The position numbers and the translations under genes were made by a program. From the IMG/VR virus record IMGVR_UViG_3300042301_004374, positions 1-58,323 of that record: 58,323 bases of DNA; one strand, 5' to 3'. Positions within the stretch are counted from its first letter, which is position 1. Each line of letters opens with the position of its first letter. Shown here one piece after another: positions 4,079-56,708 of this stretch. This DNA comes from a virus. Under the pieces are notes generated by a model. That model did not search any database, had not been told where the DNA came from, and saw nothing but the letters and a program-made list of their open reading frames with translations.

Positions 4079-5023
4079 ATGAAGAATCTTAAATTACTTC
4101 AATTACTTGAATCAATATTAGGAAAAGGAAAAATTACTTCCGGAAATAATATTGCGTTCTTTTCTCCGTTTCAATCTCATTACAAACCAAAATTAGAAAT
4201 TGATATCAATACAACTAGTTCTGGAGAAAATGCTTGGCATTGTTGGATTTCAGATAAAAAAGGTAGAAGTATTGCGTCTTTATTTAAACAATTAAATTTA
4301 CCTAAAGAACGATTCGAACAATTAAATCGAATAATTGAATCGGCTCGATATCGCGTTACTGAAACTGACACGAAGCCAAATCAATCCATACAAATTCCAG
4401 CAGAATATTCTCCGTTATGGATTAAAAAATCAACACCAGATTATCGTAATGCAATACATTATTTAACTAATCGAGGCATAACAATATTTGATATTTTAAA
4501 ATACAGAATTGGATATTGCGAATCTGGTGAATATTCCGGCAAAATAATCATACCTAGTTACGATAATGATGGTCAATTAAATTATTTTGTTAGTCGTGCT
4601 TATTATAAAGCAGATAAATTTAAACATAAGAATCCTAAAATTTCTAAAGATATTATTGGTTTTGAAATGTTAATAAATTGGTCTGAACCAATTGTTTTAT
4701 GTGAAGGATCATTTGATGCAATTGCCGTTAAACGCAATGCGATACCATTATTTGGAAAAATCATACAACCTGCATTGCAAAAGAAAATCATACAAGAACG
4801 TGTTAAAGAAATTTATATTTGTTTAGATTCGGATGCTTTGAAAAATGCGTTAACGATTGCTGAACGGTTTATGGGTGAAGGCTTAAATGTATATTTCGTT
4901 GAACTAAAAAACGAAGATGCATCGGAATTAGGTTTTGAAAAAATTACAGAAATTTTAGAAAATACAACTATCTTAACTTTTGAACGAGTTATGGAATTGA
5001 GAATGGGATTAATATGGACATAA
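4079..5023 (+). CDS. DNA primase, T4 gp61-type (TOPRIM)
   Basis: 314 residues. TOPRIM motifs: E209 in VLCEGSFDAIAVK and D250-S-D252 in CLDSDA, which would bind the catalytic metals for RNA primer synthesis. The N-terminal region (about 50-75, WHCWISDKKGRS) occupies the place of the DnaG zinc-ribbon but keeps only one cysteine, so zinc binding is probably lost. It would work with the DnaB-type helicase encoded at 55353. The start is set by the promoter-like box six bases upstream. The 3' end overlaps the gp47-gp46 fusion gene by 10 bases, indicating co-expression. Confidence 0.88.
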   Translation: MKNLKLLQLLESILGKGKITSGNNIAFFSPFQSHYKPKLEIDINTTSSGENAWHCWISDKKGRSIASLFKQLNLPKERFEQLNRIIESARYRVTETDTKPNQSIQIPAEYSPLWIKKSTPDYRNAIHYLTNRGITIFDILKYRIGYCESGEYSGKIIIPSYDNDGQLNYFVSRAYYKADKFKHKNPKISKDIIGFEMLINWSEPIVLCEGSFDAIAVKRNAIPLFGKIIQPALQKKIIQERVKEIYICLDSDALKNALTIAERFMGEGLNVYFVELKNEDASELGFEKITEILENTTILTFERVMELRMGLIWT

Positions 5024-8000
5024 AACAAATCGATTGCGGAATCGATAAAATTGATAAAATATTTCATGTTTCTGATATACATATTAGAACATTAAAACGC
5101 CATGGCGAATATCGTACGGTATTTCAAAATTTATTTGATTACATTGAAGCGAATTGCACCGGAAATAGTATAGCAGTAGTTACCGGGGATATAGTTCATA
5201 GCAAATTGGATATGTCGCCAGAACTAGTACAAATGCTAGTTGATTTTTTTAATGGATTTACAATTCCTACAATTGTAATTCTTGGTAATCATGACATGAA
5301 TTTGAATAATATGCATCGCGTCGATGCAGTTAGTCCTGTTTTAGATGTTATACGAAATCCAAACATTTATTTTATTAAAGAGAACGGATTGTTTGAATTA
5401 GGAGGCGTTACTTGGAATCATATGGCAGTAGATAAAACGCCAGCTGAATACGTAATGGCTAAAGATTTTCAAGCAGGTTATAAAATTGCATTGCATCATG
5501 GCGCTGTAAATACTGCGAAAACTGATATTGGATACCAAATTTCAAATGAACATGTTACAACGGCATTGTTTGCAGGACATGATATTACTTTGTTAGGAGA
5601 TATTCATAAACCAGCTCAATTTTTAGATGATGCAAGAACAATTGCATATCCAGGTAGTTTGATACAACAAAATCATGGCGAAGCATTAGACCATGGAATA
5701 TTAGTATGGGATTTAGAATCACGTACAGCAGAATTTGCGCAAATACAAAATGATTACGGTTATGTGACGTTGGAAACACAAGGCGATAAAATTGTTTCGC
5801 ATCCACATCGTATGCCAGTTAAACCTAGAATTAGAATCAAGTTTAACGGCACTAGTGCGGCTGATATGAAAAAATTAATTGCAACGATTCGTAAAAAATA
5901 CGATGTGCAAGACATAACAATTCAACGCACAATTGAACATGCATCAGCAACTACTAGCAATAATTTGGCTATTGGAAATGTACGTGACGTTGAATATCAA
6001 AATATTTTATTGACAGAATATATTGATACAAATTTTCCACAAGCAACTGCAGAAGAAGTTGATGCTATACGACATATTAATAGAACTATAAATTCAAAAC
6101 TGCCGGCAGTAGAATCAATACGCCATACTACATGGCATCCCGTATCATTTGAATTTGACAACATGTTTTCTTATGGAGAAGGCAATTTAATTAATTTTGA
6201 AAATTTGTCAAATGTTTGCGGATTGTTTGCGGCAAACACTTCAGGTAAATCTAGTTTATTAGATGCAATAACTTATACGATATTTGATAAATGTAGCAAA
6301 ACCGGAAAAGCAAACGAAGTTTTAAACAACAAAAAAACTTGGTTCCGAGGTGTATTTCGTTTTGAAATGAACGGCACAATTTATACTATCGAACGTCGTG
6401 GTACTCAAAATAAAAAGAAAGAATCACATGTAAAAGTTGATGTGGATTTTTATACCGATGCTGATAATCTTAATGGAGAAGAACGTAGTGAAACAAATAA
6501 AAACATTCGTCGTTATCTAGGAACATATGATGATTTCATTTTAACGGCATTTTCATTGCAAGCCGACAATAACAATTTCATTGAAAAATCGCAAAAAGAA
6601 CGCAAAGATTTACTTTCACAATTCTTAGACATCACGGTGTTTGAACAATTGTATCAATTGGCAGCCGATGAAATAAAAGAGACAGCTGGACGTTTAAAAG
6701 ATTATAAAAAAACTGATTTTGCTGATATAATCATAACTGCAGACACAATTATTTCTGACAATCAAGACAACATTAATACATTAGAAACAAAAGAAGATGT
6801 ATTGCAAGAACAGCGAAATGTTTTACAAGAACGAATTGTTTCATTGATTGAAACTAAAATGCCAACAACGTATGATGGGCCAGATATCAACGAATTAAAA
6901 AAACAAGAACAAGATTTAATTCAATTAATTGAATCAATACAAACGGATATTGAAACTGCGGAATTTGATTTAGAAACGTTACATGCAAATATTGATGAAC
7001 GTGAAACAAAATTAGCAGAATATGATATTGCGGCTATTAATGCAGCAACCGAATTATATTCGAAAAAAGAATATTCAGTTAATATACTTTTACAAAAATT
7101 ACGTCAACAACAGGAGCGAGTAAATGCTAAACAAGAAAAAATTAATCATCTTTCCGACCATGAATATGATCCGAAATGTAAATACTGTACATCTAACGTT
7201 TTCGTACAAAATGCAATTGAAGCACAAAACACAATTACAGAAGATAGAGACTTATTAGAAAACACTAAACAACGAATTGTAAGTTTAAATTCAGAAATAA
7301 CAGAATTGAAACCGGTTTTTGAAAAAACGGAACAATTAAATGAATTACGTAACAAACTTGCAACTGAAAATATTACAGCAGAACGCAATGAGTTACAACT
7401 ACAAATATTAGAAAGCGATTTGCAAACCCGCGAGTCTGAATTGGAAATTGTGATTGAACGTCAAGATTCATTCAAGAAAAATGAAACGGCAATTAAACAC
7501 AACATACAAATTAATGAACAAATTGCTACATGTAAACAAAACATTACAGACATTAGCAATGAAATCAAAACGATTCAAACTCAAATTAAAAACATGTATG
7601 GAGCGATTGAAGTTGCAAAAACAAAAAAATCAACTGCAATGCAACAACTTGAACGATACCGAACATTGGAAACGGAATACAAAGCATATGAATATTATTT
7701 AGAATCAGTAAAACGCGATGGAATTCCATATGAATTAGTTACAAAGGCATTACCTAAAATTGAAGCTGAAATTAACAATGTACTTAACCAAATAGTTGAT
7801 TTCAACATGGTAATGAATACTGATGGTAAAAATATTAACGGATACATTATTTATGATGAAGATAATTATTGGCCATTAGAATTAACTAGCGGCATGGAAC
7901 GTTTTATATCTTCATTGGCAATTAGAATTGCATTGATTAATGTATCGGCATTGCCTAGACCTAATTTTATTGCAATCGACGAAGGATGGGGCTCGTTAGA

Positions 8001-8160
8001 TTCAGAACATATTTCATCGGTAGTTAATTTGTTTGATTATTTCCGTACTAAATTTGACTTTTCAATCATAATTAGTCACGTAGATTCTATGCGAGATATG
8101 GTTGATTCATTAATCAATGTAGATAAACATAACGGTTTCAGCCAAATAAATCATGTTTGA
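5014..8160 (+). CDS. Mre11-Rad50 (gp47-gp46) single-chain fusion nuclease/ATPase
   Basis: 1048 residues in one uninterrupted frame. The N-terminal third is a calcineurin-type nuclease: D21-I-H23, GD59, GNH93D94 and later HHG and GDIHKP metal ligands (SbcD/Mre11/gp47). From about residue 380 it is an SMC-type ATPase (SbcC/Rad50/gp46): Walker A A406-A-N-T-S-G411-K412-S, long coiled coils, zinc hook C722-K-Y-C725, signature LTSGMERFISS and Walker B with D989-E990. T4 encodes the two subunits separately (about 340 and 560 residues). Together they resect DNA ends for recombination-dependent replication with UvsX and gp32. The first Walker A glycine is alanine here. Overlaps the primase gene by 10 bases. 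Confidence 0.93.
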   Translation: MDIKQIDCGIDKIDKIFHVSDIHIRTLKRHGEYRTVFQNLFDYIEANCTGNSIAVVTGDIVHSKLDMSPELVQMLVDFFNGFTIPTIVILGNHDMNLNNMHRVDAVSPVLDVIRNPNIYFIKENGLFELGGVTWNHMAVDKTPAEYVMAKDFQAGYKIALHHGAVNTAKTDIGYQISNEHVTTALFAGHDITLLGDIHKPAQFLDDARTIAYPGSLIQQNHGEALDHGILVWDLESRTAEFAQIQNDYGYVTLETQGDKIVSHPHRMPVKPRIRIKFNGTSAADMKKLIATIRKKYDVQDITIQRTIEHASATTSNNLAIGNVRDVEYQNILLTEYIDTNFPQATAEEVDAIRHINRTINSKLPAVESIRHTTWHPVSFEFDNMFSYGEGNLINFENLSNVCGLFAANTSGKSSLLDAITYTIFDKCSKTGKANEVLNNKKTWFRGVFRFEMNGTIYTIERRGTQNKKKESHVKVDVDFYTDADNLNGEERSETNKNIRRYLGTYDDFILTAFSLQADNNNFIEKSQKERKDLLSQFLDITVFEQLYQLAADEIKETAGRLKDYKKTDFADIIITADTIISDNQDNINTLETKEDVLQEQRNVLQERIVSLIETKMPTTYDGPDINELKKQEQDLIQLIESIQTDIETAEFDLETLHANIDERETKLAEYDIAAINAATELYSKKEYSVNILLQKLRQQQERVNAKQEKINHLSDHEYDPKCKYCTSNVFVQNAIEAQNTITEDRDLLENTKQRIVSLNSEITELKPVFEKTEQLNELRNKLATENITAERNELQLQILESDLQTRESELEIVIERQDSFKKNETAIKHNIQINEQIATCKQNITDISNEIKTIQTQIKNMYGAIEVAKTKKSTAMQQLERYRTLETEYKAYEYYLESVKRDGIPYELVTKALPKIEAEINNVLNQIVDFNMVMNTDGKNINGYIIYDEDNYWPLELTSGMERFISSLAIRIALINVSALPRPNFIAIDEGWGSLDSEHISSVVNLFDYFRTKFDFSIIISHVDSMRDMVDSLINVDKHNGFSQINHV

Positions 8161-33007: not shown

Positions 33008-34273
33008 ATGCCAAATAGATGGCCCATATCTTCTGGTAATTGGAGTACAGCTTCAATTTGGAGTGGTAGTATAATACCTACTGCATCTGATGATGTATTT
33101 GCAAATGGGCAAACGGTTAATATAGATACAAATATTACCGTTATAAGTCTTCGCAATTCATCAACAGGAAGTGTTGTAGCTAATGGTACTTTTTATTTGA
33201 ATGATAACGTCATTGTTACCGCAAATGTTATATTACCTACTACTGGAATCAATACTGATACAATACAAATTACCGGATCTAACTCAGCTACTATAATAGG
33301 AAATTTAACTGGCGGACAACGTAGAGCATTAACATTATCTGATAATTCTAATATTTCCATAATAGGAACCGTAACCGCAGGTGCTGGAGCATCATTCAAT
33401 GGAATATCCCACAACTCAACAGGAAACCTAATAATATCAGGAAGTATTATCGGACCTACTACTCAACAATCATCTGGAGTAGTGCAAATAAACACCGGTA
33501 ATATATATGTAACTGGAAGTATATACGGCAGAACAACTGCAGCTGGAGTTGGCGGCGGAATTAGTTCAACTAGTACAGGAAATATATTTGTTAATGGATC
33601 AATTACTGGTTCATTTAATGCAACATCATATGGAATATTAAAAACAGTGGCAGGAAATATTGAAGTAAATGGAAACTGTCTTTCCTTAACAGGCTCTGCA
33701 ATTAGCCATACTTCAACCGGAACAATATTAATCTCAGGTAGTTTAACTGCAGTTTCATCACCCGTAATCTCACTAACAGGAAACTCAATCCTTCAAGTAA
33801 TAGGACCAATCTCCTCTAGTACAACTGCAGTAGGTGTCTCCTCAACATCAACTACAGCAACTAACATATTTTCTGGACCATTCTATAATACCGGATCATT
33901 TAATGCAGTATATGCATATCGTATGCAAATTATAGAACCCACTTCAACAACATGGCGATTCGATACAGATACAGGTGGTTCAAAAATACTTTACACTTCA
34001 AATCAATTACCTGGAGTACCTCAACAAAACAATGTACGACAAGGAATACAATATAATTTTGGATTAACTGGATCTTTAAAGATGCCAGATCCAACTGTTG
34101 TTAAATCGGGAGTAGCAGTAGATAACACTACTGGTTCTGCCATATTTACACCACAAGACATGTTTAACGTATTAACCCAAGATATAACACAAACAGGAAG
34201 TTTAGGATCAACGTTGAAAAACGCTGCTACTGTACAAACTACTGCTGCAACTATATCTGCATTTAAAGTTTAA
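33008..34273 (+). CDS. Tandem beta-helix adhesin paralogue 1
   Basis: 421 residues. N-terminal G8-like block: GNWSTASIWSG, then IPTASDD and NGQTVNIDTNITV. Residues about 80-290 are stacked NITGSI/ISGSI-type rungs suggesting a right-handed beta-helix. The C-terminal domain (GVAVDNTTGSA ... LGSTLKNAATVQTTAATI) is shared with the next three proteins. No catalytic residues recognised; a receptor or glycan-binding tail protein is inferred. Confidence 0.7.
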   Translation: MPNRWPISSGNWSTASIWSGSIIPTASDDVFANGQTVNIDTNITVISLRNSSTGSVVANGTFYLNDNVIVTANVILPTTGINTDTIQITGSNSATIIGNLTGGQRRALTLSDNSNISIIGTVTAGAGASFNGISHNSTGNLIISGSIIGPTTQQSSGVVQINTGNIYVTGSIYGRTTAAGVGGGISSTSTGNIFVNGSITGSFNATSYGILKTVAGNIEVNGNCLSLTGSAISHTSTGTILISGSLTAVSSPVISLTGNSILQVIGPISSSTTAVGVSSTSTTATNIFSGPFYNTGSFNAVYAYRMQIIEPTSTTWRFDTDTGGSKILYTSNQLPGVPQQNNVRQGIQYNFGLTGSLKMPDPTVVKSGVAVDNTTGSAIFTPQDMFNVLTQDITQTGSLGSTLKNAATVQTTAATISAFKV

Positions 34274-34276
34274 AAT

Positions 34277-35569
34277 ATGGCAAACGTATACGCAGTAAAA
34301 AATGGAAATTGGTCTGATACAACGGTATGGAATACTGGAGCACTACCTACTACTGCAGACGATGTATATCCAAATAATTTTACCGTAACGGTTAATCAAA
34401 ATATTACCGTACTTAGCTTACGAAATGGCGCATCATCTCCAATTGTTGCTGGCGGAACATTTGCCTTAGCAAATGGTATCATGGTAACGGTAACAGCTGA
34501 TATAGGATTTAACCCAGCAGCTGGTACATTAACTAGAATAACGGGATCTGATTCAGCAACAATTAATGGAAATATTGGCGGTGATCTTGCTGGCACTTCG
34601 TTATTAATAAGTCAATCTGCTAATATAACAATATCAGGATCTGTTACAGGAAATACTAGTACTGGTGCTAATTCCATAACCCACGCATCTTCTGGTATTT
34701 TAATTATTACAGGAAGTGTAAGAGGTGGTAGGGGAACAAACACCCATGGTATAAGTAATACTAGTTCCGGATCTATATATGTAACAGGCTCAGTAACTGG
34801 AGGCTCGGCGTTAACGGCGCTAGGTATTAACAATGTAGGGGCTAACAGTACTACTATTATAATAGGAAACGTATCAAGTGGCATCGGATCCGGAGCGAAT
34901 GGTATAGCACAATTTGGATCCAATTCAATATTAAATATAACCGGTAGCGTAATTGCAAATGTCGCACCAGCTATACAAGCCAATTCTGCAGGTTGTTCCA
35001 TTTACATTTCAGGAAGCGTAGTAGGAGGACGAACTGATACTGTCGGTGCGGTATATAAAACAACAACAGGTATTTTACAAATAATAGGACCTATAACAGC
35101 TGGACAAGTCGCACCGGGAGTTGTAACGAATGCAAATCCTTCTCCAATATATTTAACCGGTCCTTTCTACAATACTAATAATCGCAATGCAGTATATGCT
35201 CCAATCATTCAACTTATCTCGGGTTCAACACCAACATGGACATTTGATACGGAAACGGTATTAGAACAACGAACACTTTACCCACTAAATTACCCCGGTA
35301 ATTTTCCTGCTACAAACAATGTACGTCAAGGCGTAACATTTGGAGATACGGGACAATTTTCAGGTACCATTGCAATGCCAAACGCATCTGACGTATTTAA
35401 AGGAGTCCCAATCAACAATACTACGGGTTCTGCATCATTTGATACTCAAAGTGTATGGAGCGTTGCAACAAGCAGTTTAACGTCATCTAATAGTGTTGGA
35501 GCACGGTTAAGCAATACTGCGACAGTTTCAACAGATGCCAATTTAATAACTTCAAACGGAACAATATAA
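34277..35569 (+). CDS. Tandem beta-helix adhesin paralogue 2
   Basis: 430 residues with the same plan as its neighbours: [21 protein letters not shown] at the N-terminus, Thr/Ser/Gly/Asn-rich rungs in the middle, and the C-terminal block [11 protein letters not shown] ... [16 protein letters not shown]. The middle part differs strongly from paralogue 1, as expected where receptor specificity varies. Starts three bases after the previous stop. Confidence 0.7.
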
Positions 35570-35570
35570 C

Positions 35571-36680
35571 ATGGCAACTATAACAAGTGCAGCAACAGGA
35601 AATTGGTCAGCAACAGGAACTTGGGTAGGTAGTGTAGTTCCTACTGCTGCAGATGACGTTGTAATTGCAGCTAATCATACAGTAACATTGAATGTGGATG
35701 CTACAATTATATCATTAACAGGAGCTGCAAATGCTACCAGCAACGTAACTATTTCTACTAGTAGGACCTTAACATGTACTGCAACAAATGGTATAGTAGC
35801 TAAATCTGTTACAGGTGGATTAGGATTGGTTAGAATAACGGGAGTCGGAACAACAGTAAATATAAATTCAAATTTAAGAAGTTCACTTACCGGTGGATCA
35901 TCTACATATGCTGTATCTGTAAACAGTGTATGTACAGTAAATATTGTAGGAGAATTATCAAATCCATTTAATAATGGTGGAAATAATGCCGCATTAAATA
36001 TCGGTGCTGCTGCAACAGTAAATATAACAGGAAACTGCTTTGGTGGAAGTGCTCCGAGTGGAACAGCAATTGCTGCTGCTATACTTGCCAATTCTTCGTG
36101 CATTTTAAATATACTAGGTAATGTAACGGGTGGTTCATCTACTATATTTGCCGCAGGAATTGTAAACCAAACATCTGCGTGTACTATGAACATAACAGGA
36201 TCATGTACATCTATAATTGCACCTGCTATAACATCAACCTTAACTACATCAACATTACGAGTAAAAGGTCCATTAATTTCTCAAAACAACATCAACGCAG
36301 TATTTTCACCTAAAATTCAACTTTTTTCAACTTCAACACCGTATTACGAAATACAATCTGATACTTTTGGTCGCGATATATTTTTATATGATGCATCATA
36401 TACATCAAGTTTACCTGCACAATCCAATGTACGAAGCGGGAGTATATATGGCGGTTCAAACGAATTTTCCGGTTCCATGATAATACCAACAGCATCAGAT
36501 GTACGTTACGGAGTCCCGGTAGATACAACAACTGGCTCTGCTACAAACATAACACATCAAGAAATATTTGATTACGTTATAACTTCATTAACCGGATCAA
36601 ATACAATTGGAGAACGTTTAAAATCAATTTCAACAGTACAAACCACAGCAGCAATAGTTGCTGCTTTTAAAGGAAAATAA
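35571..36680 (+). CDS. Tandem beta-helix adhesin paralogue 3
   Basis: 369 residues, the shortest of the four. N-terminal [20 protein letters not shown]; middle with repeated VNITG/MNITGSC rungs and several cysteines unusual for the family; C-terminal [11 protein letters not shown] ... [19 protein letters not shown]. One base separates it from the previous stop. The cysteine-bearing rungs set it apart from its sisters. Confidence 0.7.
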
Positions 36681-36683
36681 CAT

Positions 36684-37895
36684 ATGGCAAACAGATATGC
36701 AGTAGCAAACGGAAATTGGTCTGATACGGCAACTTGGGATGGTGGAACATTACCTGCAAGTGATGACGATGTTAGACCCAATGGATTTACTGTAATAATT
36801 GATCAAGACATAACAGTTAATCAACTAATCAATAATGCATCTAGCCCAGCAATTGCTGGTGGGTTATTCTACATATATGGTGATTATGACATAACAGCAA
36901 CAACAGGATTGAGTAGTACAGGAGCAACAGTAACGGGTGGATATATAAAATACTATAATACCGGTTCAATTACAATAAATGCAACATTTCTACAAACTAG
37001 AAATACCCTAGAAAATGTAAACGATGGTACTATTAATATAACCGGTGAAGTTAGAATACCTGGTGCAAGTCCTAATACTCGAACCGTAACTAACAGTTCA
37101 AATGGCGTTATCAATATTATAGGAAATATTACTTGCCCCACTAGTACACAGACAAGTAACTTTGCCATTTTAAACTCGAGTAATGGTACTATTAACATAA
37201 CTGGCAATGTTATCGCCGGAAATAGTGGTACTGGGCCATTTGGGATATTTAATAATTCAACGGGTACAATTAATGTTACGGGAAATTTAGTTGGAACAGT
37301 TAATGCTGCCGCCGTATTTAATAATGGTACCGGAACGGTTAACATAACAGGTAACGTCACAACAACAGGTGATGATCCTGGATTACAATCAAATACCGCT
37401 GGTACGTTCAACGTAATAGGCCAATTACAAGCCTCAACAACGGGTAATGCAGTGTCATCAACATCAACTACAGCAACCAACGTATTTTCAGGCCCATTTC
37501 TTAATTCAGGCTCGCGTAACGCAATATATTGCTATAACGTACAATTGTATGATGATGTTACAACTCAATACGTAATAGGAGTATCCGGCTCAACCGATAC
37601 AATTTCAATAGTATCACCAGATCAAGTTACAGGAGTACCGTCAGGATCTGATGTACGTACGGGAACAATTTATGGACCTGACAATGTACTAACAGGTTCA
37701 ATGGCTGTACCACATCCAAACTCAGTATCGTGGGGTGTTGCTATAGAAAACACAACGGGAACGGCAATTGCAAAACCAGAAGATTTATGGAACTATGCTG
37801 TAACTGCATTAACTGCATCTAATAGCATTGGACAACGTTTAGCATCTACAGCAACATCGGCATCAAATGCAGCAATTGTAAATGTTTTCGGATAA
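36684..37895 (+). CDS. Tandem beta-helix adhesin paralogue 4
   Basis: 403 residues. N-terminal NGNWSDTATWDGGTLPASDD is very close to paralogue 2, while the rungs (NGTINITGNV, GTINVTGNL, GTVNITGNV) are the most regular in the set. C-terminal GVAIENTTGTA ... SNSIGQRLASTATS. It ends the tandem block, ahead of a small coiled-coil gene and the sheath. Confidence 0.7.
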   Translation: MANRYAVANGNWSDTATWDGGTLPASDDDVRPNGFTVIIDQDITVNQLINNASSPAIAGGLFYIYGDYDITATTGLSSTGATVTGGYIKYYNTGSITINATFLQTRNTLENVNDGTINITGEVRIPGASPNTRTVTNSSNGVINIIGNITCPTSTQTSNFAILNSSNGTINITGNVIAGNSGTGPFGIFNNSTGTINVTGNLVGTVNAAAVFNNGTGTVNITGNVTTTGDDPGLQSNTAGTFNVIGQLQASTTGNAVSSTSTTATNVFSGPFLNSGSRNAIYCYNVQLYDDVTTQYVIGVSGSTDTISIVSPDQVTGVPSGSDVRTGTIYGPDNVLTGSMAVPHPNSVSWGVAIENTTGTAIAKPEDLWNYAVTALTASNSIGQRLASTATSASNAAIVNVFG

Positions 37896-48975: not shown

Positions 48976-50298
48976 ATGATACTGGATCATGAACAAGACG
49001 TACGCAACATATTGAATCGAATACATGAGTACAAGACATTGTTAGTTCCAATACTTGCAAGTCCTGTGATGCATGCATCTCAAACTCAATTGATTGCAAT
49101 TTATATTTTTCTAGATTCAGATGAAGAATATTTAATTCCAATACGGCATACGGAACAATTACGGGGCTTTCCAGAACTTGTCCCGGAGTTTTTAGAATTA
49201 CGCAATATATTTATCCATGACAAGAAGCAATGGCTTCATATGGGAGGAAACACCGAGGTTTGGGATATTAAAACGTTGTGGTGGTATACATACGGAGAAG
49301 CCTATGATGAATCGCATTATCCAACTGCAGCCCATCGTTTTTATTGGAGACGGCATGTTGCTTTGGAACATATTAATGCAATTGTTCCATTGCAAAAACA
49401 TTTAGAGATGTGTCAAAAGATCCGGCACTATGCTTGGCCAATGTGTATCAATGCAAAAATGACTGATTCATACAACCAATTCAATGAAACTTATCCACAA
49501 GTTTTTGCTAAATTAGAATCTGCCGGATTAGCAGTTACCGATATATTTCGAATGCCAGAATTGATTACGCAAAACAAAGTGTATACGCAGTATAATTATC
49601 ATACATTAACGGGTCGACCTAGCAATGCGTTTAGAGGTTTCAATTTTGCAGCAATGAACAAAGAAGATGGAACTCGTAGTGCATTTTGTAGTCGTTTTGA
49701 TAATGGGGCATTGGTGGAAATGGATTTCGATTCATACCACGTTAGATTGATTGCCAGATTAGTGCAATACGAATTGCCGACATCATCAATACATGATTAT
49801 TTAGGACGATTTTATTTTGGTGTAATGGAATTATCAGACACGCAACGTGAAGAAAGCAAATCTATAACATTCCGGCTACTTTACGGTGGAATTGATTCTG
49901 AATTTTTAACTATTCCATTTTTTAAACTAGTTAATGATTTTATATACAAGTTATGGGCAACATGGAAATCTAAACATTACATTGAAACCCCTATAATTAA
50001 ACGACGATTAACGGCAGATACTTTGAAAAACATGACAGCAAACAAGCTATTCAATTACTATTTGCAAGCAGTAGAAACCGAAGTATCTGTACAAAAGCTA
50101 CGGCAAGTGCAAGATGTGTTAAATGGTCATCAAAGTTGCATGGTGTTATATACATATGACTCTGTATTGTTTGATATTGAATTTTCCGAAGCAAAGGTGT
50201 TATTACCAACCATTAAACATGTATTAGAACAAGGCAATTTTCCGGTTAAAATTAAAGCGGGCAATAATTATAATAAAATGAATATTATTACAATATGA
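48976..50298 (+). CDS. Family-A DNA polymerase, exonuclease domain degenerate
   Basis: 440 residues from ATG 48976; a TTG at 48949 is rejected because it would precede the -10 box. Polymerase motifs align with Pol I: motif A MD250FDSYHVR (D250 for D705, H255 for E710), motif B R291-E-E-S-K295-S-I-T-F299-R-L-L-Y303-G, motif C Y394-D395-S (HDE in Pol I). The N-terminal 130 residues keep the outline of a 3'-5' exonuclease but ASPV stands where DxE is expected, so proofreading is probably lost. T4 uses a family-B enzyme; Rhodothermus phage RM378 carries a family-A one. Phe at 299 should discriminate against dideoxynucleotides. Confidence 0.82.
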   Translation: MILDHEQDVRNILNRIHEYKTLLVPILASPVMHASQTQLIAIYIFLDSDEEYLIPIRHTEQLRGFPELVPEFLELRNIFIHDKKQWLHMGGNTEVWDIKTLWWYTYGEAYDESHYPTAAHRFYWRRHVALEHINAIVPLQKHLEMCQKIRHYAWPMCINAKMTDSYNQFNETYPQVFAKLESAGLAVTDIFRMPELITQNKVYTQYNYHTLTGRPSNAFRGFNFAAMNKEDGTRSAFCSRFDNGALVEMDFDSYHVRLIARLVQYELPTSSIHDYLGRFYFGVMELSDTQREESKSITFRLLYGGIDSEFLTIPFFKLVNDFIYKLWATWKSKHYIETPIIKRRLTADTLKNMTANKLFNYYLQAVETEVSVQKLRQVQDVLNGHQSCMVLYTYDSVLFDIEFSEAKVLLPTIKHVLEQGNFPVKIKAGNNYNKMNIITI

Positions 50299-51539
50299 AT
50301 ATAGATTTAATTTTAACGGAGTGGTGTTACAGACTACCAAAAGGATATCCTACGACAGCAAAGGATTATGAGGTATTGTATCATGTTATTCTCGAAGTAG
50401 CAAACATATCAAATGACGAAGCACGTCGAATTGTTGAACGTGCACAAGGCAATGTAAAAGAATTGATTGCCGAATCGATTCAGTTTGATTCCATAGAAAA
50501 TCAAATGTTAACTAGTGCAATTGGTGAAGCTGGCAAATCGGAACAATTTGCAACATTTTTACGATTACTACCAACAGAAGCAGATGGCATTACATTGAAT
50601 TTTTTAAATAGCATGCAACAAGAACAATGCATCGAATTTGCAAACATGTTGTATTCACAAAATGGTATTTCAGAAGATGCATTGAATCAAATCAACATTC
50701 GTAGCGGTTTAGCACATGATTTATTTAGATTGGAACCAAAAGGATTAGGAAAAGGCGAAATTTTCTTGGCTACGTTAATTGATGGCTCGCAAATAAACGG
50801 AGGTGGTTCTTCCTTCGACATGACAGCTAACGGACAACCATACGAAATCAAAGATTATACGGGTGGAAAAGGCAATGCAAAATCAATTCGTTTGGGAACA
50901 AAAGGAAGTGTTACCAGATTCAAATTTTGGGATGAAATTGTAACTACATTGAAACGCATAGATCAATTACGCGGAACAGTAGAAAATCCAAAATATGATT
51001 TCCATAAATATTTCGACCAACCGTTACTTGATGCAATTGCATATTTAGATGACCGCCGTGCATTTATTTTAGCCGGCAATTTAAACATGAAAGATAAAGG
51101 CTATTTAATGCAATTTTATCGCGAAGCAAATGCATTGAATTCCGACATTCAAGGATATACCAATGTTATACTTCGTGGACCAAATGCAACACCGGTAGAA
51201 ATGTCAATTGAACCATTGAAAAAAAATCCGGATGGATCATTAGTTATTAAACCAATTGAAGATGGTAGCCGAGATATAACATATATTAATGCAGAATTGC
51301 GACGTTTAAAATACGTTAGAAATCCTGATGCATTGGATACGGATTTGCAAGAAGCTGTAGATTCTATTGTTGCTGGAGATTTGCAATTCATTGTATTCAG
51401 AAAAGATCGTATACGAGTTACCAATGATTTCCGTTATGTAGTAATAGATGCCGGCAAAATTCGTATTATTGAAAAAGCAATTGGTGCAGATAAAATTGAT
51501 TTAACCGACACCGACATAACCGAGGAATATGAATTTTGA
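50295..51539 (+). CDS. D...ExK protein coupled to the polymerase, putative nuclease
   Basis: 414 residues. GKGEIFLATLIDGSQINGGG, then SFD175 ... YE184-I-K186 fits the PD-(D/E)XK nuclease pattern D-x(n)-E-x-K. The N-terminal 130 residues are helical, and the C-terminus is beta-rich (LQFIVFRKDRIRVTND). The ATG overlaps the polymerase stop (ATGA), so the products are made together. It may supply a nuclease function missing from the polymerase, but that is speculation; many unrelated proteins carry ExK. Not recognised as a known family. Confidence 0.55.
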   Translation: MNIDLILTEWCYRLPKGYPTTAKDYEVLYHVILEVANISNDEARRIVERAQGNVKELIAESIQFDSIENQMLTSAIGEAGKSEQFATFLRLLPTEADGITLNFLNSMQQEQCIEFANMLYSQNGISEDALNQINIRSGLAHDLFRLEPKGLGKGEIFLATLIDGSQINGGGSSFDMTANGQPYEIKDYTGGKGNAKSIRLGTKGSVTRFKFWDEIVTTLKRIDQLRGTVENPKYDFHKYFDQPLLDAIAYLDDRRAFILAGNLNMKDKGYLMQFYREANALNSDIQGYTNVILRGPNATPVEMSIEPLKKNPDGSLVIKPIEDGSRDITYINAELRRLKYVRNPDALDTDLQEAVDSIVAGDLQFIVFRKDRIRVTNDFRYVVIDAGKIRIIEKAIGADKIDLTDTDITEEYEF

Positions 51540-51922
51540 AAACACAATTATTGTGCACTTTTGCACATAAATCAGATTTAAACATAGTTGTAGATTACGT
51601 ACAACAAAATTACATAATACCAGAACGCAGAATATTTGTATTTGCTAATGCAGATGCAACGGATAATTTGTATTGCACATATAATGCAGATGTTGGTACA
51701 CAACGCGGACAGAATACTATTAGCATACATCGTAAAAAAGAGACAAACACATTGTATACAGTAAATGCTTTGAATGAGATAATCTTGGCAGTAAACAACG
51801 GCGTGTTAGATAAATCTTACCAACTGGATTGGACGATGTATCATAATTCATTTATATTAACTGAAGATTCAGGATACCGGGTAATTGACCTTGTATTTTT
51901 CAAGAAAATTTCTTGGAAGTAA
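51536..51922 (+). CDS. Small replication-module protein
   Basis: 128 residues, begun at TTG 51536 which overlaps the previous TGA (TTGA); no in-frame ATG is near, so coupled non-ATG initiation is likely. Alpha/beta pattern (KTQLLCTFAHKSDLNIVVDY; DKSYQLDWTMYHNSFILT). No motif recognised. Position between polymerase partner and single-strand binding protein suggests a replication accessory role. Confidence 0.55.
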   Translation: MKTQLLCTFAHKSDLNIVVDYVQQNYIIPERRIFVFANADATDNLYCTYNADVGTQRGQNTISIHRKKETNTLYTVNALNEIILAVNNGVLDKSYQLDWTMYHNSFILTEDSGYRVIDLVFFKKISWK

Positions 51923-52302: not shown

Positions 52303-53094
52303 ATGGCGTTAGATTTAACAGCAATTAAGGCAAAACTAAATCAGTTAAACAAAGCTGATGACAAAAAACAAAATTTGTGGAAACCTGAATCAGGCAAAAC
52401 AAGAATCCGAATCGTACCTTACGTACACAGAAAAGAAAATCCGTTCTTAGAATTGTATTTTCATTATGACATTGCAAAACGTTCAATGTTATCTCCAATC
52501 ACATTTGGAAACCCAGATCCAATCGTTGAATTCGCAGACAAACTTAAGAAAACTGGCGACAAAGATGAGTGGTTAATGGGTCGTAAAATCGAACCGAAAA
52601 TGAGAACTTATGTTCCTGTAATCGTTCGTGGAAAAGAATCAGAAGGAGTTAAATTCTGGGGATTCGGAAAACAAATCTACACTGAATTATTATCAATTAT
52701 TTCAGATCCAGATTACGGTGATATTACCGACTTAATGAATGGTCGTGATATCGATGTAGAATTTACTCCAGCAGAAGGAGCAAATTATCCTAAAACATCA
52801 ATTCGTGTTAAACCTAACACACAACCGGCAACCGAAGACAAAGAGATTGCACAAAAAATTATGAATCAGCCACAAATCACTGATTTATTCCCGGAGCCAA
52901 CGTATGACGAATTGGAAAAAGCATTAACAGAATGGATGAATCCAGAAAATGCTGATTCTGATGTAAGTTCAACCGAAGATGAAGATGAAGATGATGCACC
53001 AACAACGGCACCAGCAAAAACTTCAAAAGCAACTGCACCAGCTGCAACTAAAGTAGAAGACGTTTCTGCTGCATTTAATGATTTATTCAAGTAA
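52303..53094 (+). CDS. Single-stranded DNA-binding protein (gp32-type)
   Basis: 263 residues. N-terminal LAST-like basic helix (LTAIKAKLNQLNK) for cooperativity, an OB-fold core (KTRIRIVPY; LELYFHYDI; VIVRGKESEGVKFWGFGKQIY), and an acidic C-terminal tail ending in AAFNDLFK for protein contacts. The core has no cysteine: at the place of the T4 zinc site (SPITFGNPDPIVEF) the expected cysteines are Ser, Asp and Val, so structural zinc is absent. It coats replication intermediates and loads UvsX and helicase. Strong AAAGGAAG tract. Confidence 0.92.
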   Translation: MALDLTAIKAKLNQLNKADDKKQNLWKPESGKTRIRIVPYVHRKENPFLELYFHYDIAKRSMLSPITFGNPDPIVEFADKLKKTGDKDEWLMGRKIEPKMRTYVPVIVRGKESEGVKFWGFGKQIYTELLSIISDPDYGDITDLMNGRDIDVEFTPAEGANYPKTSIRVKPNTQPATEDKEIAQKIMNQPQITDLFPEPTYDELEKALTEWMNPENADSDVSSTEDEDEDDAPTTAPAKTSKATAPAATKVEDVSAAFNDLFK

Positions 53095-53104
53095 GGAGTT
53101 ATAA

Positions 53105-54268
53105 ATGGCTAAAACAAAAAGTAAGTCAGAACTGGAAGACAGTTTAGCAAACACGTTAGCAGATAGTATCAACAAACAATTTAAAGGTCAAGCACTTAAA
53201 ACTGCATTCTTTTTAGATGGGGATGATGATTCTCCTAGCAACGTTAAAGAATGGATTTCATCAGGATGCGACTCACTTGATTTAGCAATCTCAAACCGCC
53301 CTAATGGAGGATTTCCTGTCGGGCGGATTACTGAAATTACCGGTTTAGAAGCATCGGGTAAATCATTGCTAGCGTCACATACCTTAGCAGAAACGCAGAA
53401 AAAAGGTGGATTGGCAGTTTATATTGATACTGAAGCTGCAACTAGTTCTGAATTTTTGACAGCAATTGGAGTTGATTTAAAAACCATGTTGTATGTTCCA
53501 ATGGAAACGGTTGAAGAAATATTTGAAACAATCGAAACAATTGTAGAACAAGTACGTAAATCAGACAAAGATCGTTTAGTTACGATTATTGTGGATTCAA
53601 TCATGGGTGCATCGACAAAAATAGAAATGTCAGCTGAATACGATAAAGATGGGTATGCAACATCAAAATCAATTATCTTATCCAAAGCAATGCGTAAAGT
53701 AACCAATTGGATTGCAAGAGAAAGAATTTGTTTGATATTTACCAATCAGCTTCGTACAAAAATGGGAGTTTCATTTGGAGACCAATGGACAACTGCGGGT
53801 GGTAAAGCAATTCCATTCCACGCATCGGTTAGATTGCGTCTTAAAAACACCGGAATGATTAAAGCAAAAATTAATGGCGTTGAACAAGTAGTAGGAAGTA
53901 AAACCGAAGTTCAAGTTGTTAAAAATCGAATGGGACCGCCACATAGAAAAGTAAATTACGAAATCTATTATGATAGCGGAATTGACAATTATGGAGGTTG
54001 GTTAGAAACAATGAAGAAATTTGACTTAGTTAAACAATCTGGAGCACATTATACATTGGAAGATGTAGATATTGAAACTGGGGTTGTTCATGGCGAAGTT
54101 AAATTTCAATCAAAAAACTTTATGGAAAAGGTGATAGAACACCCGGAAATTAAAGAACGGTTATATCAGAGAATTTGCGATGCGTATATTTTCAAATATC
54201 AAGCAGGAATCGATGGCGGAATTGATGATGTAATTATCACCGATGAAGTTTACGACGAAGAAGGATAA
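53105..54268 (+). CDS. uvsX: UvsX/RecA recombinase
   Basis: 387 residues. Walker A G80-L-E-A-S-G85-K86-S87, Walker B TIIVDSIMG, loop region FTNQLRTKMG and QWTTAGGKAI are those of RecA-family strand-exchange proteins, with T4 UvsX-like length and N-terminal polymerisation segment. It would drive recombination-dependent replication with gp32 and the Mre11-Rad50 fusion. TAAGGAG Shine-Dalgarno precedes the ATG. The stop overlaps the next start as TAATG. Confidence 0.95.
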   Translation: MAKTKSKSELEDSLANTLADSINKQFKGQALKTAFFLDGDDDSPSNVKEWISSGCDSLDLAISNRPNGGFPVGRITEITGLEASGKSLLASHTLAETQKKGGLAVYIDTEAATSSEFLTAIGVDLKTMLYVPMETVEEIFETIETIVEQVRKSDKDRLVTIIVDSIMGASTKIEMSAEYDKDGYATSKSIILSKAMRKVTNWIARERICLIFTNQLRTKMGVSFGDQWTTAGGKAIPFHASVRLRLKNTGMIKAKINGVEQVVGSKTEVQVVKNRMGPPHRKVNYEIYYDSGIDNYGGWLETMKKFDLVKQSGAHYTLEDVDIETGVVHGEVKFQSKNFMEKVIEHPEIKERLYQRICDAYIFKYQAGIDGGIDDVIITDEVYDEEG

Positions 54269-55317
54269 TGAATAAGTATCAAAAATTGTTTAAAGAGTTA
54301 CAAAAAGAAAAGCTTTCAAGTCCGTCAAACGTCGATGATCATATCATGTTGGTTGACGGCTTGAATACTTTTATTCGTAGCTTTGGCGCCACGCCTAGTT
54401 ATAACGAGGATGGTGACCACATCGGAGGAATATCCGGATTTTTATATTCTGTTGGAAAAACTGTGCGTGATTTTCGCCCAACTCGATTGATTATCGTATT
54501 TGATGGTAAAGGTGGATCTGCAAAACGCAAAAAAATATACGGTGATTACAAAGGCAATAGAGCCAATAAAACTAAATTGCGAAGACACGATCATCACGAA
54601 ACTACATTGGAACAAGAACAAGAATCAATGCGACATCAATTTAGTCGGTTGATTTCATACTTAGATAATTTGCCAATTACATTTATATCAATGGATGGAA
54701 TTGAAGCAGACGATACAATTGCATACGTTGCTGACATGTATCAAGATGTTTGCAAAAAAATGACAATTGTATCAACGGATCGCGATTTTTATCAATTAAT
54801 AAGTCCTGCTATACAAGTATGGTCACCTATTAAAAAGAAAATGTATGATGAAGCGGCATTGTTAGAAGAATTTGGAGTACACCCAATGAACTATGTTGTG
54901 TATCGAACATTTACAGGCGATGCATCAGATAATATTCCAGGTGTCGATGGTTTTGGTCCAAAAACTATATTGAAAACGTTTCCGGAACTTGCTAGCACCA
55001 AAGAATTTACATTGGATGATTTACGCAATAAATGTAATTTATTAACGGAGTCGAAAAATCATCAAAAAGTACTAGCAAATTACGATGTAATTGATAAAAA
55101 TTATCGTTTAATGAATATTAAATTGTTAGATATTCCAGCGCAAACGGCAACAAAAATTCGAGGCATTGTAGGACAACCTATACCAGAACTTAATCGCAGT
55201 GAATTTCAAAGACTGTTTTATGAAGATAAAATGTGGTCTGTAATGAAAAATTTACCAGAGTGGTTAACTAATACATGGTTATCATTAAACGCTTTTGCAA
55301 AACAAACACAAATTTAA
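54268..55317 (+). CDS. 5'-3' exonuclease / flap endonuclease (T4 RNase H-type)
   Basis: 349 residues. FEN/PIN-type motifs: MLVDGLNTFIR, LIIVFDGKGGSAKRKKIYGD, MDGIEADDTIAY, VSTDRDFYQLI and the helix-hairpin-helix-like TGDASDNIPGVDGFGPKT. The conserved acidic residues are all present, so it should remove RNA primers and flaps on the lagging strand, a function the family-A polymerase here lacks for want of a 5' nuclease domain. Coupled to uvsX by TAATG. Confidence 0.93.
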   Translation: MNKYQKLFKELQKEKLSSPSNVDDHIMLVDGLNTFIRSFGATPSYNEDGDHIGGISGFLYSVGKTVRDFRPTRLIIVFDGKGGSAKRKKIYGDYKGNRANKTKLRRHDHHETTLEQEQESMRHQFSRLISYLDNLPITFISMDGIEADDTIAYVADMYQDVCKKMTIVSTDRDFYQLISPAIQVWSPIKKKMYDEAALLEEFGVHPMNYVVYRTFTGDASDNIPGVDGFGPKTILKTFPELASTKEFTLDDLRNKCNLLTESKNHQKVLANYDVIDKNYRLMNIKLLDIPAQTATKIRGIVGQPIPELNRSEFQRLFYEDKMWSVMKNLPEWLTNTWLSLNAFAKQTQI

Positions 55318-55352: not shown

Positions 55353-56708
55353 ATGACAGATAAATTATCGGAATACGGCTACGGCTTTCAAGTAAAAGTT
55401 TTAGCTGCAATGTTTACGGACAGAGCATTCCTACAACAAATAGCAGATATAATACAAGCAGACTATTTTGAATCAGATGCAAATAGTTGGTTATTGGAAA
55501 TCATTCTTACTCACTTCAGAGAATACAAAACACCTCCTTCAAAAGACGTACTTAAGGTTAAAATTACTGAAATTGATAATGACATATTAAAGACGGCAAT
55601 CTTAGAACAATTAAAGGAAGTATTCCGCTACATGGAATCCGATGACCTTTCTTTTGTGAAAGATGAAATTCTTAAATTTTGTAAGAATCAAGAAATTAAG
55701 CGTGCAATTATGGATTCGGTAGGTTTACTTAAAATGGGTAACTACGATGAGATAAAAACTAAGATTGATGGGGCTATGAAAGCTGGTGCTGACACCAATA
55801 TTGGTTTGGATTACAAAGCAAATATTTCAGCACGATATGCGGAGGCGTCGCGACATACCATTACAACGGGATGGGACGTAGTAGATGATTTAATGGACGG
55901 CGGTTTAGCTCCAGGTGAATTAGGAGTAGTAATGGCACCTGCAGGTATTGGTAAATCGTGGATGCTTATTAATATTGGTGCAAATGCAATTAAAGCCGGA
56001 CATACCGTTATACATTATACATTGGAGCTCAATGAAAATTATGTCGGACAACGATATGACTCGGTATTAACGGGTATCAATGCACAAACCTTGAAACATC
56101 ATCAAGACACGGTGCAAGAGAAAATGGATTCATTGCGTGGCGATTTAATTGTAAAATATTTTCCAACAAAATCAGTCGGTGTATTAGGATTAAAAGCACA
56201 TTTTGAAAAAACCATAATGATGGGTAAAACGCCAAAATTAGTTATTGTAGATTACGGCGATTTATTAAAAATTAATGCTAAAAAAGACAAACATGAAGCA
56301 CTTGAAGAATTATATGAAGAATTACGCGGAATGGCAGGAGAGTACGATATCCCTATTTGGACCGCTTCACAAGCAGGTAGATCTGCTTTGGAGGAAGATG
56401 TTATCGAAGCTGACAAAATAGCATCTTCATATGGTAAAGTAATGGTTGCGGATTTCTTAATGTCACTTTCTAGAAAAGTTGAAGATAAAATGTCAGGTAC
56501 AGGACGTGGACATGTTATTAAGAATCGTTTCGGACCAGATGGAATTACGCTTCCAAGTAAAATTAATACTAATAATGGGCAATTCCAATTCTTTGAACCA
56601 CAAACAACTCAAGGCAAGCAAACAACCCAAACAATGAAAACTGGCGAGAATTTAATTAAGAAAAATTTAGCTCAAAAATTCAAAGATTTGGGTGGAAGTT
56701 TAGGTTAA
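55353..56708 (+). CDS. Replicative DNA helicase, DnaB/gp41-type
   Basis: 451 residues. N-terminal helical domain (1-150) as in DnaB/gp41. RecA-like motor: TTGWDVVDDLMDGGLAPGEL, Walker A APAGIGK201S, Walker B LVIVDYGDLL, H3-type SQAGRSALEE and an arginine-finger region KNRFGPDG. Loads on lagging-strand template and works with the primase at 4079. Its upstream region has the leaderless-type promoter box. A hairpin terminator follows. Confidence 0.95.
   Translation: MTDKLSEYGYGFQVKVLAAMFTDRAFLQQIADIIQADYFESDANSWLLEIILTHFREYKTPPSKDVLKVKITEIDNDILKTAILEQLKEVFRYMESDDLSFVKDEILKFCKNQEIKRAIMDSVGLLKMGNYDEIKTKIDGAMKAGADTNIGLDYKANISARYAEASRHTITTGWDVVDDLMDGGLAPGELGVVMAPAGIGKSWMLINIGANAIKAGHTVIHYTLELNENYVGQRYDSVLTGINAQTLKHHQDTVQEKMDSLRGDLIVKYFPTKSVGVLGLKAHFEKTIMMGKTPKLVIVDYGDLLKINAKKDKHEALEELYEELRGMAGEYDIPIWTASQAGRSALEEDVIEADKIASSYGKVMVADFLMSLSRKVEDKMSGTGRGHVIKNRFGPDGITLPSKINTNNGQFQFFEPQTTQGKQTTQTMKTGENLIKKNLAQKFKDLGGSLG

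Follow-up and report, generated by a model that had tools for sequence, protein, structure and literature searches.

A small family-A DNA polymerase with a dead exonuclease domain and no thumb accompanies other polymerases in aquatic T4-like phages

The gene at positions 48976-50298 of the viral DNA analysed here (58,323 bp, hereafter the window) encodes a divergent, proofreading-dead family-A polymerase of a T4-like phage, as judged from profile matches, predicted fold and residue alignment. This protein (small PolA) lacks the thumb subdomain, and the same phage also carries a complete gp43-type family-B polymerase. We infer that small PolA probably acts as an auxiliary DNA polymerase of low processivity in gap filling or recombination, and not as the replicase. 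Its features are the following.

48976..50298, + strand: small family-A polymerase gene, 440 aa, thumb absent, dead exonuclease domain (Pfam DNA_pol_A; AlphaFold2/Foldseek match to Klenow; >290 homologues)
48976..49470, + strand: residues 1-165, domain with an exonuclease fold but no catalytic acids (pLDDT 91; DxE in 0/256)
49525..49617, + strand: G184 to R214 (R668 equivalent), place of the missing thumb
49723..49740, + strand: motif A, D250-FDSY-H255 (D705; His for E710), D250 and H255 invariant in 297/297
49846..49887, + strand: motif B, R291..K295..F299..Y303-G304, with K295, F299 and Y303 invariant
50053..50067, + strand: N360-Q364 (N845 and Q849 equivalents; alignment, conservation)
50155..50163, + strand: motif C, Y394-D395-S396 (HDE in Pol I), Tyr and Asp invariant

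The open reading frame extends from an ATG at 48976 to the stop codon ending at 50298, and homologues share the start codon. Small PolA scores 39.2 bits against DNA_pol_A (PF00476; curated Pfam cut-off 34.3), the match starting only at profile position 88 of 381 (87-103 across the family), whereas full-length PolAs of the type of gp199 from Flavobacterium phage immuto match already from position 25-27. PHROGs and NCBIfam contain no family of its own for small PolA, a single-sequence search of the PDB returned a chance match only, and the LR756508 protein found no relatives when used as query. An AlphaFold2 model built from 29 relatives (mean pLDDT 86, pTM 0.85) displays palm and fingers subdomains, and its top PDB match in Foldseek is the Klenow fragment (E 1.7e-18). 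Pol nu and Pol theta also rank high among the matches, and the crAss-like PolA cr108_1 is found by structure only. Together with the residue alignment described below, this bears out the earlier note on this DNA, which had assigned the gene to a T4-like phage and read its product as a divergent family-A polymerase apparently unable to proofread.

Residues were assigned by alignment of small PolA with E. coli Pol I and T7 gp5. The motif matches named in the earlier note are correct: D250, K295, F299, Y303 and D395 correspond to D705, K758, F762, Y766 and D882 (E. coli Pol I numbering), H255 occupies the place of E710, and Y394-D395-S396 that of the HDE of motif C. R214, R234, N360 and Q364 are the equivalents of R668, R682, N845 and Q849. 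Conservation was assessed in 256 relatives, the most distant at about 25-30% identity, and in 41 long PolAs obtained by an independent search seeded with a neighbouring 128-aa protein (297 homologues altogether). R214, D250, H255, K295, F299, Y303, Q364, Y394 and D395 are invariant in all 256 relatives, R234 and N360 are conserved at 99.6%, and the R754 position (R291 here) is Tyr in most. D250, H255, K295, F299, Y303, Q364, Y394 and D395 are likewise kept in 41/41 sequences of the independent set, and the third position of motif C is Ser or Ala across the family (YD[SA]). The two metal-binding Asp residues of motifs A and C and the Lys and Tyr of motif B, by which family-A polymerases are recognized, are thus invariant; the family-A hallmarks Glu at E710 and HDx in motif C are both missing, His being found at the former position in 297/297 homologues. 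Ser after the Asp is not odd by itself, as polymerases of HMO-2011 and SPO1-like phages carry HDS, and within the set compared it is the Tyr before the motif C Asp and the His for E710 that are particular to the small PolA family. In the Klenow fragment, E710 is the residue that excludes ribonucleotides.

A point overlooked in the earlier note concerns the thumb, which is absent from small PolA and all 297 homologues. When the family profile is aligned to Klenow, the IExxG helix falls at Klenow 533-551 and the alignment resumes only at about 652. The distance from the Gly of this helix to the R668 equivalent is 30 residues in small PolA, 20-38 in the 256 relatives and 20-40 in the independent set of 41; E. 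coli Pol I has 124 residues in this interval, T7 gp5 has 198 and immuto gp199 has 214. Long helices are absent from this region of the AlphaFold2 model. In family-A polymerases the thumb grips the product duplex, and both affinity and processivity depend on it. In open-licence papers we found no description of an active thumbless family-A enzyme or of the small PolA family.

Residues 1-165, modelled alone, adopt a DEDD-exonuclease-like fold with Foldseek matches to Klenow, RNase D, Rrp6 and DnaQ. The DxE motif is missing from this domain in all 256 relatives, and no family member has a PF01612 match; H58, K83, K84, D97 and P138 are invariant instead. Because the sequence-profile match of the N-terminus to exonuclease domains (E 0.076) is too weak for residue-by-residue mapping, the assignment of a dead exonuclease rests on the fold and the absence of DxE, which confirm the earlier reading of an exonuclease-like N-terminus without its catalytic acids. 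A simple [YH]xxxD string is present in the N-terminal stretch of 55/256 sequences. Small PolA hence lacks the active 3'-5' exonuclease (DEDDy residues) typical of bacterial Pol I. Small PolA is under purifying selection (dN/dS 0.07-0.15), which acts alike on the exonuclease-fold and polymerase domains (dN/dS 0.05-0.15), and with values of about 0.1 in both domains a degenerate pseudogene was rejected.

The 144,950-bp contig IMGVR_UViG_3300042569_001383 (G001) contains all 58,323 bp of the window at 100.000% identity. The earlier note had proposed a check of the rest of the genome for a family-B polymerase, and on G001 such a gene is found 7.3 kb past the window end:

65651-68167 (window-equivalent positions): gp43-type family-B polymerase, 838 aa (PF00136 137 bits, PF03104 80 bits, phrog_262 600 bits)

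All three exonuclease and all three polymerase motifs of this protein are intact (FFFDIET, GWNTDNYDIPY, YNMVD, DLTSLYPS, KVLLNSFYG, YTDTDS), and genes for a processivity factor and a clamp loader follow. The phage of the window therefore has the type of enzyme known as gp43 in T4, as a gene separate from small PolA, from which gp43 differs in polymerase family and in its proofreading domain and clamp. A separate 3'-5' exonuclease, for which a search had also been proposed, was not found: matches to RNase_T (PF00929) or PF01612 are missing in the window's phage and its relatives, immuto gp199 excepted, and a DnaQ-type proofreader was rejected on this ground.

The co-occurrence extends across the family. 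Among the 22 small PolA contigs examined that measure 100 kb or more, 20 have a second polymerase. It is of family B in 13 of the 22 (G001, G002, G003, G006, G007, G016-G019, G022, G023, Mel-JY01, LR756508), while seven, all of the immuto clade, are without family B and carry a family-A polymerase of 778-796 aa, which in immuto (gp199) has an intact PF01612 exonuclease. The two exceptions, G013 and G021, are fragments that may have lost the second gene by truncation: small PolA lies 4 kb from the downstream end in G013 and 25 kb in G021, and the spacing between both polymerase genes in immuto is 38 kb. The 93-kb contig G005, also without family B, ends 3.5 kb downstream of small PolA. Since small PolA coexists with either a family-B or a full-length family-A polymerase, the replicase has changed from one family to another while small PolA and the genes beside it were retained. 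An origin of small PolA as a duplicate of the full-length immuto enzyme was rejected by the tree, in which one split with ultrafast bootstrap 100 parts all small PolAs from all reference PolAs including gp199. The family-B polymerase is split into two open reading frames in G018 (L304, L305; 610 + 306 aa) and is also split in LR756508 (L296-L298; 1022 + 625 aa), perhaps by an insertion or intein.

Two members of the family occur in named phages, gp001 of immuto (NC_055915; 34% identity) and WWT39333 of Microcystis phage Mel-JY01 (26% identity), the latter annotated only as hypothetical. Both resemble the window in gene row, motifs, absence of the thumb and the 128-aa neighbour; immuto differs in its second polymerase, which is full-length family A and not family B. 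In comparison with E. coli Pol I (Klenow), small PolA shares the fold of exonuclease domain, palm and fingers and the equivalents of R668, R682, D705, K758, F762, Y766, N845, Q849 and D882, and differs in the thumb region, the exonuclease acids, the replacement of E710 by His, H881 by Tyr and E883 by Ser, and the 5' nuclease, which is encoded by a separate gene. A second, reduced polymerase of bacterial type beside a family-B replicase has one precedent among T4-like phages: group 2.2 jumbo phages have a minimal, split Pol III alpha beside their family-B enzyme (PMC7824862). That polymerase belongs to family C, is encoded by two genes and is unrelated to small PolA in sequence. The comparison with Rhodothermus phage RM378 suggested in the earlier note turned out to be inapplicable. 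RM378 is likewise a T4-like phage with separated replication enzymes, but its polymerase is of family B (PF00136) without a PF00476 match, and kinship with small PolA was rejected.

Downstream of small PolA, the window contains a row of genes on the same strand.

50295..51539, + strand: 414-aa open reading frame, only in the window's own clade (Pfam/PHROGs scan, locus comparison)
51536..51922, + strand: gene of the 128-aa partner, with linkage to small PolA in all clades
52303..53094, + strand: gp32-like single-strand binding protein (PF08804 54 bits)
53105..54268, + strand: UvsX/RecA-like recombinase (phrog_97 236 bits)
54268..55317, + strand: 5' nuclease of the T4 RNase H / Pol I 5' domain type (PF02739 114 bits)
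55353..56708, + strand: DnaB/gp41-type helicase (phrog_19 245 bits)

The 5' nuclease, placed at 54268 by the earlier note as well, is thus a gene of its own and not part of the polymerase polypeptide as in bacterial Pol I. Gene order was compared in 70 loci from three clades with at least 9 kb downstream of small PolA, and the row of small PolA, 128-aa frame, gp32, UvsX, 5' nuclease and DnaB on one strand is seen in 69-70 of them, the 128-aa gene in all 70 and the 5' nuclease not being found at one. The 128-aa protein and small PolA are confined to exactly the same 6 of 50,697 GenBank phage records. A reciprocal search, with the 128-aa family as its only seed, yielded 80 new loci; small PolA lies upstream in 44 of the 56 with at least 1.5 kb of upstream sequence, and all 12 without it have less than 2.5 kb, observed spacings reaching 3.6 kb. 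The 128-aa protein has an invariant H-x-K-x3-N-T-x-Y-T-x-N-x-L-N motif and no convincing family in Pfam, PHROGs or PDB, a Tox-MPTase2 match remaining below the cut-off. In Mel-JY01 a 428-aa open reading frame lies between the 128-aa gene and gp32 (L087:14006-15292) and matches S-adenosylmethionine lyase (PF23780, 40 bits), an enzyme of the anti-restriction type; the 414-aa frame of the window, in the corresponding region, is apparently unrelated to it.

Based on this dataset, we favour an auxiliary role. Replication would be carried out by the gp43-type enzyme with its own clamp and clamp loader. Small PolA, retaining the active site of palm and fingers, would synthesize short patches of DNA in a distributive manner, as expected from the lack of thumb and proofreading site. 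The fixed row with gp32, UvsX, 5' nuclease and helicase suggests a division of labour like that of Pol I, in which the 5' nuclease would remove RNA or flaps and small PolA would fill gaps on the lagging strand (Okazaki maturation) or at recombination intermediates; gap filling in one of these settings may be the most economical role. If a subunit keeps small PolA on DNA, the 128-aa protein is the best candidate. Most members have other residues at all four of the E710, R754, H881 and E883 positions, which speaks against the auxiliary reading in that activity could be reduced or changed, and gap filling, lesion bypass and recombination cannot be told apart by gene neighbourhood alone. More tentatively, we hypothesize a two-component class of phage polymerases, in which a thumbless, exonuclease-dead family-A catalytic subunit with a sugar-gate His depends on the 128-aa protein as a substitute for the thumb, may tolerate ribonucleotides, and serves many aquatic T4-like phages as second polymerase irrespective of the replicase they use.

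A low-fidelity translesion polymerase, comparable to eukaryotic Pol theta or Pol nu and able to extend beyond damaged or modified bases, seems unlikely. It would agree with the missing proofreading, the altered dNTP-binding residues, the high Foldseek ranks of Pol nu and theta, and the 7-deazaguanine-pathway genes of the phage (GTP cyclohydrolase, PTPS-type), given which the template may be modified. Pol theta and Pol nu, however, possess thumbs and carry bypass inserts, whereas small PolA is shorter than Klenow everywhere; moreover, the best structural match is Klenow itself, and the gene row holds nothing specific to lesion bypass.

We consider it rather improbable that small PolA is a catalytically dead or strongly altered fold kept as DNA-binding scaffold or recombination mediator. 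The dead exonuclease domain is constrained as strongly as the polymerase domain, four active-site residues are replaced and the thumb is lost, all of which would fit; a scaffold would not be expected, however, to keep the metal-binding Asp pair and the equivalents of K758, Y766, R668 and Q849 invariant in 297 sequences at identities down to 25-30%. The earlier note had held that a gp43-type polymerase elsewhere together with evidence of inactivity would refute its reading: the former exists, and the invariant catalytic residues and purifying selection speak against the latter.

The earlier note had also considered, conditionally, that small PolA is the replicase, with fidelity low or provided from elsewhere; this is very improbable and already strongly contradicted, for despite the place of small PolA in a replication gene row beside gp32, UvsX and helicase, the same phage has a complete gp43-type polymerase (PF03104 + PF00136) with clamp and loader, another polymerase coexists across the family, and the lack of a thumb would entail poor processivity. 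A family-A replicase of the T7/SPO1 type would be expected to be the sole replicative polymerase of its phage, and here a family-B enzyme is found in the same genome.

T4 is the textbook one-polymerase phage. In hundreds of contigs of aquatic T4-like phages there is a second polymerase, and its retention through replicase exchanges between families A and B argues that the auxiliary enzyme has a job that is distinct and needed. If active, a thumbless family-A polymerase would indicate how small a part of the fold suffices, and with the 128-aa partner gene the way in which such an enzyme stays on DNA can be tested directly. Family-A matches in viromes are not always replicases, and phage lifestyle inferences based on polA can mislead.

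Some further genes deserve mention. A 1048-aa open reading frame at window positions 5014-8160 combines an Mre11/gp47-like phosphoesterase (PF00149) with an SbcC/gp46-like ATPase (phrog_77), a natural fusion of gp47 and gp46, which are two genes in T4. On G001 (L107), genes for GTP cyclohydrolase I, PTPS (QueD-like) and a radical SAM protein (QueE-like) lie at window-equivalent positions 59810-60514, 62773-63258 and 63576-64361, and the annotation of immuto includes Que genes and DpdA; hence, 7-deazaguanine may occur in the DNA of these phages. Four tandem open reading frames at window positions 33008-37895 (421, 430, 369 and 403 aa) have similar starts of the NGNWS..W type and probably encode duplicated tail or adhesin proteins.
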